Part shown: positions 14,673 through 59,255 of the stretch, one piece after another | How positions within the stretch are numbered: position 1 is the stretch's first letter | Layout of the letters: each line of letters begins with the position of its first letter | NCBI RefSeq assembly: GCF_003024235.1 | Contig: NZ_KZ679089.1 | Location: forward strand, 1-64,000 | DNA length: 64,000 bases | Reading direction: 5' to 3' | From: Arenimonas caeni | GTDB taxonomy: Bacteria; Pseudomonadota; Gammaproteobacteria; Xanthomonadales; Xanthomonadaceae | Translations under genes and position numbers: made by a program | The notes under the pieces: generated by a model | Database searches by the model: none | Seen by the model: the letters and a program-made list of their open reading frames with translations, nothing else | What the model was told of the DNA's origin: nothing

Positions 14673-14717
14673 GGGGACGGGTGCATTTTTGGCGAAGCCA
14701 AAAATGCACCCGTCGCC
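14673..14717. repeat. 3'-end palindrome, family A copy 1
   Basis: Perfect 18-bp arms (GACGGGTGCATTTTTGGC and its complement) with a 3-nt loop, starting directly after the ctaB TAA (TAAGGGGACGGGTGC). The opposing peptidase gene ends seven bases beyond it. T and A runs inside the stem could allow termination in either direction. Outer motif GGGGACGGGTGCA is shared with 16714, 55921, 59170 and, degraded, 32994. Confidence 0.85.
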
Positions 14718-14723
14718 AAGTCG

Positions 14724-16670
14724 TCACTCCGCCAGCAGGTGCTTCTGCCAGAACAGGATCGCCGCGGCGCCGAAGTAGTCGCTGTTGGTCTTTTTGCGGA
14801 AGCCGTGGCCTTCGTCCATGAACATCAGGTACCAGACCTCGCCGCCGTTGCCGCGCACGGCCTTCACGATCTGCTCGGCCTCGGTCCAGGGCACGCGCGG
14901 GTCGTTGTAGCCCTGGGCCACGAACAGCGGCGAGGTGATGCGGTGCGCGTTGTTGAGCGGCGCGATGCGGTCGTGGAAGGCCTTGATCTCCGGGATGCGT
15001 TCATCGCCGTACTCGGCCCGGCGCAGGTCGCGGCGGTAGTCCTCGGTGTTCTCGAGGAAGGTGCCGAAGTCGGAGATGCCCACGATGTCGATGCCGGCCC
15101 GGATGCGGTCGTTGTAGTCGACCATCGAGGCCAGCACCATGTAGCCGCCGTAGCTGCCGCCCATCACGCCCACGCGCCCGGCGTCGAGCTCGGGGCGGGT
15201 GGCGATCCAGTCGAGCAGGGCGCCGATGTCCTTCACCGAGTCCTTGCGCAGCAGGCCGTTGTCGAGCTGCAGGTAGGTCTTGCCGTAGCCGGCCGAGCCG
15301 CGCACGTTCGGCACCAGCACCGCCACCTTGAGTTCCTCGAGCAGGAACTGCGTGGTCGGGTTGAAGGTGGGCAGGGCCTGGGACTCGGGGCCACCGTGGA
15401 TGCTCACCACCACCGGGAACGGGCCATCGCCCTCGGGGCGGTAGTAGAAGGCCGGGATGGTGCGCGGCTTGCCGTCCACCTCGTCGAAGGTGGCGAAGCG
15501 CACCAGCTCGGGCGCACGGAAGCGCGAGGCGTCCAGGCCGCCCACTTCGCTGCCGGTCCAGCGCGTCATCTTGGGCGCGGCGGCGGCGAGGTCGATCACG
15601 TAGACGTCGCTGGGCGAGGTGGCGCTGTTGAGCGTCACCGCCAGCTGGCGCCCGTCGGGCGAGAAGGCGAGGTTGCCGATCACGCCGATCGGCAGCCCGG
15701 GCAGGACCAGCTCACGATGGCCGGGCAGGGCAAGCACATGCAGCTTGCTGATGCCGTCCTCGTTGGCCGCATAGGCCAGGGTCTTGCCGTCGCTGGCGAT
15801 GTCGAGGTCGGTGACGTTCCAGGGAATGTGCCCGCTGATGAGCGTGGGCGCGCCGTCCTCGGGGTCGTGGTGGCGCAGGGTGAGGAACTCGCGCTGCTCG
15901 TCGGAGACGTAGTACACGCTGCGGCCGTCGGGCGCGTAGCGGAAGGCGCTGAAGGCGGCCTTGCCGCCCTCGACCGGGAACAGCTCGAGCTTGCCCGTGG
16001 CCAGGTCCACTTCGCCCGGGTAGGCCTCGTTGATCGAGACGTACTTCATCACCAGCAGGCGCTTGCCGTCGGGCGAGAAGTCCATCGCCGTCCACATGCC
16101 GCCTTCCTGCAGCACGATGCGAGACTGGCCGGTGGCCATGTCGCGCACCCACAGGTCGTAGTCAGTGCCGTTGCGGGCGGTGCTGGCCCAGGCCAGCTGC
16201 GCGCCGTCGTGGGAGAACAGCGGCCGGGTGTTCTGGCTGCGGCCGCCGTCGGTGAGCATCGTCACCTCGCGCGTATCGATGTCGAACCAGAACAGTTGCC
16301 AGAACTCCGAGCCGCCCACGTCCTTGCCGAACACGAAGCCGTTCTTGCCGGGCGCCGGCGTCACCGCGCTCAGCGGCTCGCGGTAGAAGGTGAGCTGTTC
16401 GCGCATGCCCAGCGGCGCGGCCACGCGGTGCACCTGGTTGGTTTCACCGAAGCGCGTGCCGACCAGCACGCTGCCGTCGGGCAGCCAGCCGCTGAAGCTG
16501 GCGCCGCGGGTGTTCTGGTAGCGGTCCAGGCGCTCGACCAGTTCGGCCGGCACCTCGGGCAGGTTCTCGCTGACCCGGTTGCCGACCTCGACGCGTTCGA
16601 CGGCGGCGGTGTCGGCCAGGGCAGGCGGCGCAAGCAGCGCCGTGGTGAGCAGCAGGGCAGTCAGTCGCAT
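14724..16670 (-). CDS. S9 family serine peptidase (prolyl oligopeptidase type)
   Basis: 648 aa secreted or periplasmic peptidase. The start at 16670 gives a signal peptide (MRLTALLLTTALLAPPALAD); the frame reaches 16727, but the extra 19 residues are encoded partly by a palindrome. An N-terminal seven-bladed propeller has repeated SPDGK/APDGR motifs (about 30-370). The C-terminal alpha/beta-hydrolase domain has the nucleophile in GGSYGGYM, the Asp in GYNDPRVPW and the His in DEGHGF. Proteins of this type cleave peptides of modest size after proline or Ala-like residues; specificity cannot be read here. Same strand as dnaG but separated from it by a palindrome. Confidence 0.92.
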   Translation of the reverse strand: MRLTALLLTTALLAPPALADTAAVERVEVGNRVSENLPEVPAELVERLDRYQNTRGASFSGWLPDGSVLVGTRFGETNQVHRVAAPLGMREQLTFYREPLSAVTPAPGKNGFVFGKDVGGSEFWQLFWFDIDTREVTMLTDGGRSQNTRPLFSHDGAQLAWASTARNGTDYDLWVRDMATGQSRIVLQEGGMWTAMDFSPDGKRLLVMKYVSINEAYPGEVDLATGKLELFPVEGGKAAFSAFRYAPDGRSVYYVSDEQREFLTLRHHDPEDGAPTLISGHIPWNVTDLDIASDGKTLAYAANEDGISKLHVLALPGHRELVLPGLPIGVIGNLAFSPDGRQLAVTLNSATSPSDVYVIDLAAAAPKMTRWTGSEVGGLDASRFRAPELVRFATFDEVDGKPRTIPAFYYRPEGDGPFPVVVSIHGGPESQALPTFNPTTQFLLEELKVAVLVPNVRGSAGYGKTYLQLDNGLLRKDSVKDIGALLDWIATRPELDAGRVGVMGGSYGGYMVLASMVDYNDRIRAGIDIVGISDFGTFLENTEDYRRDLRRAEYGDERIPEIKAFHDRIAPLNNAHRITSPLFVAQGYNDPRVPWTEAEQIVKAVRGNGGEVWYLMFMDEGHGFRKKTNSDYFGAAAILFWQKHLLAE

Positions 16671-16713
16671 CCTCGGTTCCCCGTGTGGCTGGATAACCGA
16701 GGATATATGCATT

Positions 16714-16758
16714 GGGGACGGGTGCAATTAAGGCTTCACCTTAATTGCACCCGTCCCC
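16714..16758. repeat. 3'-end palindrome, family A copy 2
   Basis: Perfect 20-bp arms (GGGGACGGGTGCAATTAAGG and its complement) with loop CTTCA. The right edge touches the dnaG TAA, so on the minus strand the order is TAA then GGGGACGGGTGCA, identical to the ctaB junction. It lies between dnaG and the peptidase start and may terminate the rpsU-yqeY-dnaG message. Confidence 0.85.
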
Positions 16759-58026: not shown

Positions 58027-58160
58027 GTCTGCCTCCTGGGTGCTACCACGCCCTTGCCTTGGGGGGATGACCCGGTTGGGCGGGTTTGGTCGCCGGCCCA
58101 ACTTAGCGCAATTACTCTAGAGCCGCCATCAGGCGCTGTCCGGGGTTAGTGACGGGGTTC

Positions 58161-59090
58161 TCAGTACCGCGGCACCTTCGGGTCGATCTGCACCGACCAG
58201 GCGTCGATGCCGCCCTCGACGTTGTACAGGTCGTGGAAGCCGAGCTGCCGGAAGTACTCGGCGGCCTGCCGGCTGGAGTTGCCGTGGTGGCAGAGGAAGG
58301 CCAGCGGGACGTCCTTGGGCAGGGACTCGAGCCGCTCGCGGCTGTCCTCGTCGAGCACCTCGTGCGGGTGCGGGAAGGGGGCGATGGCGCGGGCGTGGGC
58401 CGGGCGCACGTCGATCACGTCGATGGTGCCGGCGATGAGGTGGTCGTGCAGCTGCTGCACGGTCATCGACTTCACCGCCGGCGGCGCGTTCGGGTTGTGG
58501 ATGGCCAGGCCGGCGCCGCGGGCGTCCTCGACCCAGTCGATGCGCAGGCCGCGGGCGCGCGGCACGCTGGCCAGGTCCAGGTGCAGGCGCAGGCCGGCGG
58601 ATTCGGCCACCACCTCGTGCCCGGAGGCCGGCTTGAGCTCGAAGCGGGCGTTGAAGCGCGGGTCCACCGACAGGTGCAGCACCACGCCGTCGTCGGCGTT
58701 TTCCAGCGCGCGGCCGATGGCCTCGGCGGCGGCGGGCGTGACCTCGATCGCCGGCGGCGTGCGGTCGGGCTCGGGCAGGCCGAGCACCTGGTGCAGTTCG
58801 CCGCTGTTGAGCATCTGCTCGATGATGTCGCTGCCGCCGAGCAACTCGCCGCCGACGTACAGCTGCGGAATGGTCGGCCACTGGCCGTAGACCTTGATGC
58901 CCTCGCGGATCTCCGGGTCGGCCAGCACGTCGACGTGGCCGAAGGCCGGCACGAGGCCCTTGAGGATGCCGGCGGCCTTGGCCGAGAAGCCGCACTGCGG
59001 CGCATCCGGGTTGCCCTTCATGAACAGCACGACATGGTGGGCGCCGAGGATCTGCTCGATGCGCGCGCGGGTATCAGGCGAAAGGGACAT
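58161..59090 (-). CDS. Grx4 monothiol glutaredoxin - degenerate A-type carrier - rhodanese fusion
   Basis: 309 aa in three parts. Residues 1-103 are a monothiol glutaredoxin with CGFS (C33) and WPTIPQLYVGGELLGGSD, which binds a glutathione-coordinated [2Fe-2S] cluster. Residues 112-202 resemble an A-type Fe-S carrier (IscA/ErpA-like VVAESAGLRLHLDLASVPRA, DWVEDARGAGLAIHNPNAP) but have none of its three cysteines, as in the N-terminal domain of NfuA. Residues 207-309 are a rhodanese with active-site loop CHHGNSSR. A role in Fe-S delivery combined with sulfur chemistry is inferred. Confidence 0.9.
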   Translation of the reverse strand: MSLSPDTRARIEQILGAHHVVLFMKGNPDAPQCGFSAKAAGILKGLVPAFGHVDVLADPEIREGIKVYGQWPTIPQLYVGGELLGGSDIIEQMLNSGELHQVLGLPEPDRTPPAIEVTPAAAEAIGRALENADDGVVLHLSVDPRFNARFELKPASGHEVVAESAGLRLHLDLASVPRARGLRIDWVEDARGAGLAIHNPNAPPAVKSMTVQQLHDHLIAGTIDVIDVRPAHARAIAPFPHPHEVLDEDSRERLESLPKDVPLAFLCHHGNSSRQAAEYFRQLGFHDLYNVEGGIDAWSVQIDPKVPRY

Positions 59091-59169
59091 GGCTGGCTCC
59101 GTTGGAATGCCGCCATTCTACCCCCACCCCCGCCACCCTCCCTGACCCACGTCAGGCCCGGGGAGGCCC

Positions 59170-59255
59170 GGGGACAGGTGCATTTTAAGAAAGGGGCCAG
59201 GTTCACTTGGTTGCCGAAGTCAACCTGGCCCCTTTCTTAAAATGCACCTGTCCCC
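59170..59255. repeat. Nested 3'-end palindrome: family C element inside family A
   Basis: Arms of 39 bp (one mismatch) with an 8-nt loop, the longest hairpin in the window. The outer 20 bp are family A (GGGGACAGGTGCATTTTAAG); inside lies family C (AAAGGGGCCAGGTTCACTT). The right edge touches the TAA of the SGNH hydrolase gene on the minus strand. Confidence 0.88.

Follow-up and report, generated by a model that had tools for sequence, protein, structure and literature searches.

Genes for TIRYT transposases with flanking GGGGWSAS repeats are described in the available text of PMC3733652 and PMC6006769. REPINs, as the accessible part of PMC3116915 presents them, consist of two inverted, invariant 16-mers with a less conserved spacer and ~71 bp between the ends; the length of this spacer and its capacity to form hairpins seem to matter. 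For repetitive extragenic palindromic (REP) sequences, placement near gene 3' ends and termini that supply stop codons have already been described (PMC3733652, same portion). Here, we analysed the palindromes of a 64-kb window of Arenimonas caeni (NZ_KZ679089.1; contig C6, positions 1–64000; G+C content 67–74%), taken from a genome of 2.95 Mb in 41 contigs. They were compared with further sequence of this genome, of its nearest relative (G021) and of other members of the genus (remaining G numbers; L numbers denote extracted loci). With a probability of about 0.8, we take these palindromes to be small non-autonomous mobile elements with inverted arms, placed beside stop codons, of which two families (A and B) are tied to TIRYT transposases encoded on contig C16. 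We conclude that the placement reflects mobile elements entering or surviving beside stop codons.

Arm families and the transposase genes flanked by A and B

Using a criterion of inverted repeats with arms of at least 17 nucleotides (nt), we found 12 palindromes in the window, and ten order-2 Markov resamplings of the window gave 0, 0, 0, 0, 0, 1, 0, 0, 0 and 0. Nine of the 12 have arms of GGGG type, two are pairs of GTAG REPs, and one (18579–18633) is part of a CGGATAAACGCGGAT repeat. A sequence-only reading of the window had listed long palindromes at 15 positions. Ten of these proved to be of GGGG type (14673, 16714, 21484, 22447, 32994, 43412, 46206, 55921, 57639 and 59170; the copy at 32994 is degenerate and falls below the arm filter) and two are the GTAG REP pairs (24906 and 52248). 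The other three are something else, namely a CGGATAAACGCGGAT repeat (18537) and two smaller, unrelated hairpins (10927 and 38734). No Rfam family matched the window at gathering score, a further Rfam scan gave the same result, and a literature search with the motif letters returned no relevant paper among the matches listed.

The GGGG-type palindromes form three families, A (GGGGAC[A/G]GGTGCATTT), B (GGGGTCAGGTTCACTT) and C (GGGGTCGGAGGTAATTT). Their common architecture consists of inverted, family-specific arms of 16–17 nt (23 nt in B when its AAGAAA[C/G] end is included) around a hairpin core that prolongs the arm pairing for some bases. GGGGWSAS does not cover the GGGGACGG variant of A or family C (GGGGTCGG). 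We observed 35 A/B half-motifs per strand in the A. caeni genome, and 9 and 10 of family C, mostly as inverted pairs; the reversed control pattern had no match in the genome in either the A/B or the C search. The number of A/B half-motifs varies between species (70 in A. caeni, 107 in G021, 30 in G002 and 0 in G016).

The analyses below use 54 A/B/C pairs from the A. caeni sequence examined, covering every exact A/B and C half-motif place listed, and 53 pairs from G021, where the search drew on 100 of the 107 half-motif places. Pairs were accepted with up to two arm mismatches, and worn copies are thus undercounted. The A. caeni elements fall into two length classes, 38–47 nt (34/54) and 68–84 nt (19/54), with one of 61 nt; those of G021 measure 37–48 and 71–76 nt, with a spread in between. 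Across 45 G021 elements, the B arms are 98–100% uniform at each position, a figure that is partly built in, as the loci were picked by exact half-motif.

Two Y1/HUH genes of A. caeni are themselves enclosed by these sequences. The gene at C16:12404 has A palindromes on both sides and the gene at C16:18924 has B arms on both sides, the flanking GGGGWSAS repeats being GGGGACAG and GGGGTCAG, respectively. The encoded proteins are 45% identical, match PF01797 with 57.0 (A) and 54.8 (B) bits at a cut-off of 23, and both contain HVH; a PDB sequence search with the A transposase gave nothing at E≤0.01. A further Y1 match, at C9:121671, is weak. Their position on both sides of these two genes identifies families A and B as putative terminal inverted repeat (TIR) elements of TIRYT transposases, and the 54 pairs are dispersed as expected of TIR copies. 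In the genus, there are 53 Y1_Tnp matches in 21 of 27 genomes. We examined 30 of these loci and found an inverted flank pair at 14, eight of them with GGGG[AT]CA and two (G012b and G003) unlike the TIR type. Outside the genus, inverted flanks of at least 13 nt were present at 37 of the 80 best loci, 27 of these with GGGG(N)C. Relatives of the transposase occur in many Lysobacteraceae (Luteimonas, Stenotrophomonas, Thermomonas, Xanthomonas) and in many Burkholderiales.

As in the TIRtrons of PMC3733652 and the TnpAREP subclass 2.1 of PMC6006769, in their available text, a Y1 transposase gene is flanked here by inverted GGGG[AT][CG]A[CG] repeats. Dispersed TIR families with many dimers are another likeness to TIRtrons, and Stenotrophomonas is a carrier in that part of PMC3733652 as well as among the loci matched here. 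Unlike the TIRs as described there, the present elements form three families, with nested A/B copies, cores that all differ and fixed sites at which the family varies from species to species. They share with REPINs, as presented in the accessible part of PMC3116915, conserved inverted 16-mer arms (their uniformity being partly built in) around a variable, hairpin-forming spacer of constrained length; however, the arms of A, B and C all start with GGGG and not with GTAG-type REP ends, the cores are all unlike, and a second, short class exists. Like the GTAG REPs in the available portion of PMC3733652, they lie near 3' ends, occupy convergent gaps at <20 bp, have termini that supply stop codons and include copies in DNA-repair genes. 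That portion also mentions two Xanthomonas species whose recB genes carry different REPs at nearly the same position, which resembles the family change seen here. Unlike GTAG REPs, the window elements start with GTAG only at 24906 and 52248.

Placement beside stop codons

Genes of the window were called with our own script, and one gap of each orientation rests on a doubtful open reading frame (ORF) of 77 amino acids. The sequence-only reading had counted an element in eight of the twelve convergent gaps; this stands, depending on the definition of an element, as seven gaps contain a long palindrome, eight when 38734 is counted and nine when 10927 is counted as well (its gap, 10910–11014, being the one with the doubtful ORF). 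It had also found the thirteen divergent gaps empty, and our gene calls confirmed that none of them (one on the doubtful ORF) holds a palindrome with arms of at least 17 nt.

Beyond the window, the words "strict" and "never between divergent genes" proved too strong. The 54 A. caeni pairs comprise 22 in convergent gaps, 25 in tandem gaps, 3 in divergent gaps, 3 within genes and 1 at a contig edge. For the 50 intergenic ones, the divergent count of 3 is far below the 14.2 expected (p=1.2e-4) and the convergent count of 22 exceeds the expected 11.6 (p=0.0012). The 53 G021 pairs are distributed similarly (23 convergent, 21 tandem, 4 divergent, 4 within genes, 1 contig edge), with p=0.0011 for the divergent and p=2.1e-4 for the convergent count among the 48 intergenic pairs, the expectation being borrowed from A. 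caeni gap lengths. In a set not picked by motif, 304 kb of A. caeni sequence including the window, there were 20 palindromes of any family (9 convergent, 7 tandem, 2 divergent, 2 within genes); relative to intergenic length, the convergent excess is moderate (expected 4.2, P=0.012). Elements are therefore mostly, not absolutely, kept out of promoter regions.

The genome-wide tabulation that the sequence-only reading had proposed gave a median distance of 6 nt from the A. caeni pairs to the nearest stop codon. Counting overlaps, the nearest stop is within 15 nt in 34/47 cases in A. caeni and 42/44 in G021. In tandem gaps, the stop is closer than the next start in 21/25 and 20/21 cases, respectively, and the position on the stop side is far from uniform (Kolmogorov–Smirnov p=5.8e-6 for 19 A. 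caeni and 1.1e-8 for 16 G021 elements). The outer edge of tandem copies falls within −2 to +1 nt of the stop in 12/18 cases in G021 and more loosely, in 6/21, in A. caeni. Elements adjoin or overlap stop codons, and the AAGAAA[C/G] end of B is often part of one. TAA stops are enriched at elements, with 12/48 against 29/471 other stops in A. caeni (where some background stretches overlap and a few genes are counted twice) and 21/56 against 24/213 in G021. When the element is removed, the remaining convergent gap has a median of 12.5 nt in A. caeni and 7 nt in G021, compared to 48 and 45.5 nt in element-free gaps.

The stop codon of ahcY in G021 is followed first by a decayed B copy and then by an intact terminator, the latter common to most relatives. 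For this reason, the insertion place looks like a stop-adjacent spacer rather than a terminator. The suggestion of insertion targeted to terminators thus survives in part: the elements do adjoin or overlap stops, with TAA enriched, but the place itself looks like the spacer.

Table 1. Palindromes and other repeats of the window, with window coordinates
Feature	Coordinates	Strand	Remarks
Family A element	14673..14717		GGGGACGGGTGCATTT arms; convergent gap; 0 nt past stop of 13707-14672, 6 nt from stop of 14724-16670
Family A element, short core	16714..16758		Tandem gap; adjoins stop of 16759-18492 (-)
Family C element	21483..21533		GGGGTCGGAGGTAATTT arms; tandem gap; 2-6 nt past stop of 20989-21480
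Family C element, long core	22447..22519		73 nt in total; convergent gap
GTAG REP pair	24906..24982		GTAGGAGCGCCTTCAGGCGCGA, inverted; convergent gap; overlaps end bases of both flanking genes
Degenerate family A element	32994..33034		Tandem gap; 7 nt past stop of 30113-32986; no right-flank match in the G021 sequence examined
Family C element	43412..43455		Tandem gap; orthologous C element in G021, loop inverted
Family C element	46206..46248		Convergent gap; 1 nt past stop; same element in G021, with an additional A element
GTAG REP pair	52245..52330		Convergent gap
Family A element	55920..55965		Convergent gap; ~10 nt past stop of 55137-55910
Lone family B half-motif	56016..56031	-	Within 3' part of called gene 55974-56897 (-)
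Family B element	57637..57687		GGGGTCAGGTTCACTT arms, T-rich tails; convergent gap; terminator-like on both strands
Nested element, A arms enclosing a degenerate B palindrome	59170..59255		Adjoins stop of 59256-59891 (-); half A and a B at this place in G021
Other repeat family, CGGATAAACGCGGAT type, not a TIR element	18526..18686		
Ordinary small hairpin (listed at 10927), not a TIR element	10939..10964		Read by eye
Unrelated hairpin, not a TIR element	38734..38770		Convergent gap; read by eye

A block of ~1.7 kb with two called genes (55936–57634) is flanked by an A and a B element of the window and is absent at the single B element of G021. The dispersed repeat at 18526–18686, of CGGATAAACGCGGATAA type, also stands behind gene ends in several species of the genus, for example at the ahcY orthologs of L411, L413, L416, L427 and L433. 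Distant pairs of inverted GTAG REPs were seen elsewhere. One pair, 740 bp apart (L072:3001-3740; G000:C15:17517-18256), encloses a giant imperfect palindrome that is ~74% complementary over its length. Another (L073:3001-3838) encloses ~790 nt with terminator-like hairpins near both ends, in which the gene caller placed no gene. A third (L068:7982-8883) encloses a long tandem array of AAAGGCAAGAGCGAAAGC units. Its first 208 nt are 82% like L065 (L065:3001-3441), and therefore distant REP pairs may carry cargo.

Cores and orthologous sites

No two cores are identical among the 54 A. caeni elements (0/1431 pairs) or the 53 of G021 (0/1378), both sets having been picked for near-exact arms. Related paralogous cores (score ≥0.5) were found in G021 B (12 pairs; null mean 5.5, range 3–14) and in A. 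caeni, where B gave 3 pairs against 0.3 in the shuffled null, A 4 against 0.5 and C 7 against 3.8. The excess is clear in A. caeni A and B and less so in G021 B and A. caeni C; the best G021 pairs are L220/L222 (0.93) and two cores within L225 (0.87). Because more core pairs are related than by chance, ordinary transposition of whole units probably occurs too. Elsewhere in the examined sequence, the longest exact match to a long core was about as long as that to a shuffled core, and no donor sequence was found there. A permutation on intragenic cores (8 of 2000) was not relied on, as residues encoded by the arms leak into the cores.

Next, we compared the elements at corresponding places. On A. 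caeni C6, 22–119 kb, 8 of 13 element clusters have close anchors on both sides in G021, and all 8 meet a G021 palindrome. The family is the same at 24906, 43412, 46206 and 111028, mixed at 59170 and different at 70363, 72320 and 99388. Overall, 20 of the 54 A. caeni elements have an orthologous place in the examined G021 sequence, with the same family at 11, a different one at 8 and no element at 1; this occupancy is biased upward, since the G021 sequence was mostly picked around elements. Conversely, L228 and L237 carry an element in G021 that is absent in A. caeni. Orthologous cores of the same family range from identical to quite different. The idea that cores are conserved where arms differ was not supported in general, such cores being no more alike than unrelated ones. 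In the orthologous C elements at 43412 and 46206, the loops are inverted between the two species (one also with a one-base change) and the arms are the same.

Within the yoaA and hrpA genes, in-frame palindromes occupy the same linker positions in several species, with arms that vary by species. At these sites, palindromes were present in 8/11, 8/15 and 8/15 of the loci examined, which were chosen after the sites had been seen in all loci; other species have a short linker and no palindrome. At one hrpA site, the palindromes of G017 and G005 are not of GGGGTC type. A constant core length in yoaA and hrpA was considered as a sign of a single ancestral insertion and dropped, as long elements have a standard length anyway. 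In both G022 and G010 (L171, L178, L172, L180), the yoaA match falls on two contigs, with the break close to the element site, as if the assembly broke at palindromes.

The 3' end of the dienelactone hydrolase (DLH) gene carries a terminator-like stem, GGCCCGC-GCGGGCC, enclosed by A arms in A. caeni and by B arms in G021. The same stem is naked in 4 of 18 other species (G003, G004, G019 and G011), whose downstream neighbour, where visible, differs from that of A. caeni, and it is absent in the other 14. Among the latter, another stem is found in G041 and REP-like palindromes in G016, G009 and G012, and the rest have no such stem. The stem is rare in the A. caeni sequence examined (590 kb, overlaps included, contain 5 matches, of which 2 lie within elements). 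Of the sites compared, this gene end makes the strongest case that a resident hairpin was captured. A single B arm stands beside a terminator-like hairpin at G021 L243:10731. Terminator capture was not shown at the STAS-gene and ahcY sites. No terminator is present at the STAS-gene site in G019 and G011, the outgroups that share the neighbour but lack the element, and core and arms seem to have come together.

Alternative explanations and possible function

The sequence-only reading had suggested use as terminators or mRNA 3'-end structures. Family B carries, on each strand, a T-rich tail resembling TTTCTT behind its arms, and the window copy at 57640 scored as terminator-like in both directions. 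The tail of A is weakly T-rich at its first three bases and that of C not at all; the copies at 43412, 46206, 55921 and 59170 were not flagged as terminators in a scan of 42000–61000 only. All six copies folded were very stable (z −6.9 to −13.7). The combination of a GC-rich stem and a U tract that defines an intrinsic terminator is present in B, absent in C and at best weak in A. Termination is a possible secondary role for B, which may act in both directions; A and C could play a part at 3' ends only as stable hairpins.

It is quite improbable, in our view, that the palindromes are host terminators or 3'-end structures kept for function, with the arm repeats as a terminator consensus and not mobile DNA. 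Such an origin would agree with the placement behind stops, the folding and the B tails. However, it does not sit well with the tails of C and A and the unflagged copies, with copies inside the yoaA and hrpA reading frames, with arms that flank transposase genes, with the strong differences between species in number and family, or with the decayed ahcY copy of G021 upstream of an intact terminator. A different possibility is that arms spread and not whole elements, i.e. a transposase or hairpin template switching would add or swap arms on resident hairpins, native terminators included, the core being local DNA. The absence of identical cores, the DLH stem seen naked, A-armed and B-armed, the lone B arm of L243 and the family differences (8/20 A. 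caeni–G021 comparisons, and between species in yoaA and hrpA) all point this way. On the other hand, orthologous cores under different arms are no more alike than unrelated ones (rank p 0.07 at DLH), related paralogous cores exceed chance, the STAS-gene outgroups have no terminator, and the GGCCCGC stem is missing at DLH in 14 of the 18 other species. Orthologous cores of one family can also differ, and fast core drift would equally explain unlike cores. Because arm uniformity is partly built in and related cores are in excess, we keep the spread of arms at low odds and regard it as unlikely. Its specific form, in which TIRYT or copying in folded single strands would write arm pairs onto gene-end hairpins and overwrite the arms of older families, appears rather unlikely to us as well. 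If true, it would account jointly for uniform arms with never-identical cores, nesting, half-armed hairpins, family turnover and 3'-end placement.

The placement might also result from purifying selection alone on random insertions, with no preference at insertion, which we hold to be a real possibility with somewhat less than an even chance. Consistent with this, the convergent gaps left after removal of elements are small, and copies do exist in divergent gaps and in genes; selection against promoter insertions can account for much of the placement bias. The clustering of tandem outer edges at the stop and the TAA enrichment at junctions, however, are not predicted by selection alone.

Several observations weigh against mobile elements moved by these transposases. 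TIRYT proteins carry a C-terminal extension similar to a helix-turn-helix (Bac_DnaA_C, HTH_23 or HTH_28); here, no Pfam helix-turn-helix was found at E≤0.001 in the ~110 residues after the Y1 domain, the NCBIfam REP transposase model scored 72.6 and 67.8, below its cut-off of 80, and no cognate gene was found for family C. By the rules used, 16 of the 30 genus loci (one with an ORF and no pair, 15 with no ORF) and 43 of the 80 best named loci outside the genus are without an inverted flank. The divergent deficit is weak in the motif-unselected 304 kb (2 of 18; expected 5.1, P=0.08). No target duplication was recognised in the alignments read, and no transposition event was observed.

We nevertheless favour the mobile elements. 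Single-stranded copies would fold into long hairpins, which the transposase would recognise and move, as proposed for REPINs. In convergent and tandem gaps, the short spacer that separates a stop codon from the native terminator or next gene would tolerate elements, and for this reason they would land or survive there; promoter insertions would mostly be removed. The arms, the families, the cognate genes and the placement are shown here; movement by these enzymes, selection and any effect on transcripts are inferred.

These results link gene-end palindromes to a transposase group with little-described repeats. The shared sites with different arm families are a natural experiment on the renewal of REP-like elements, and the DLH terminator makes hairpin capture directly testable.

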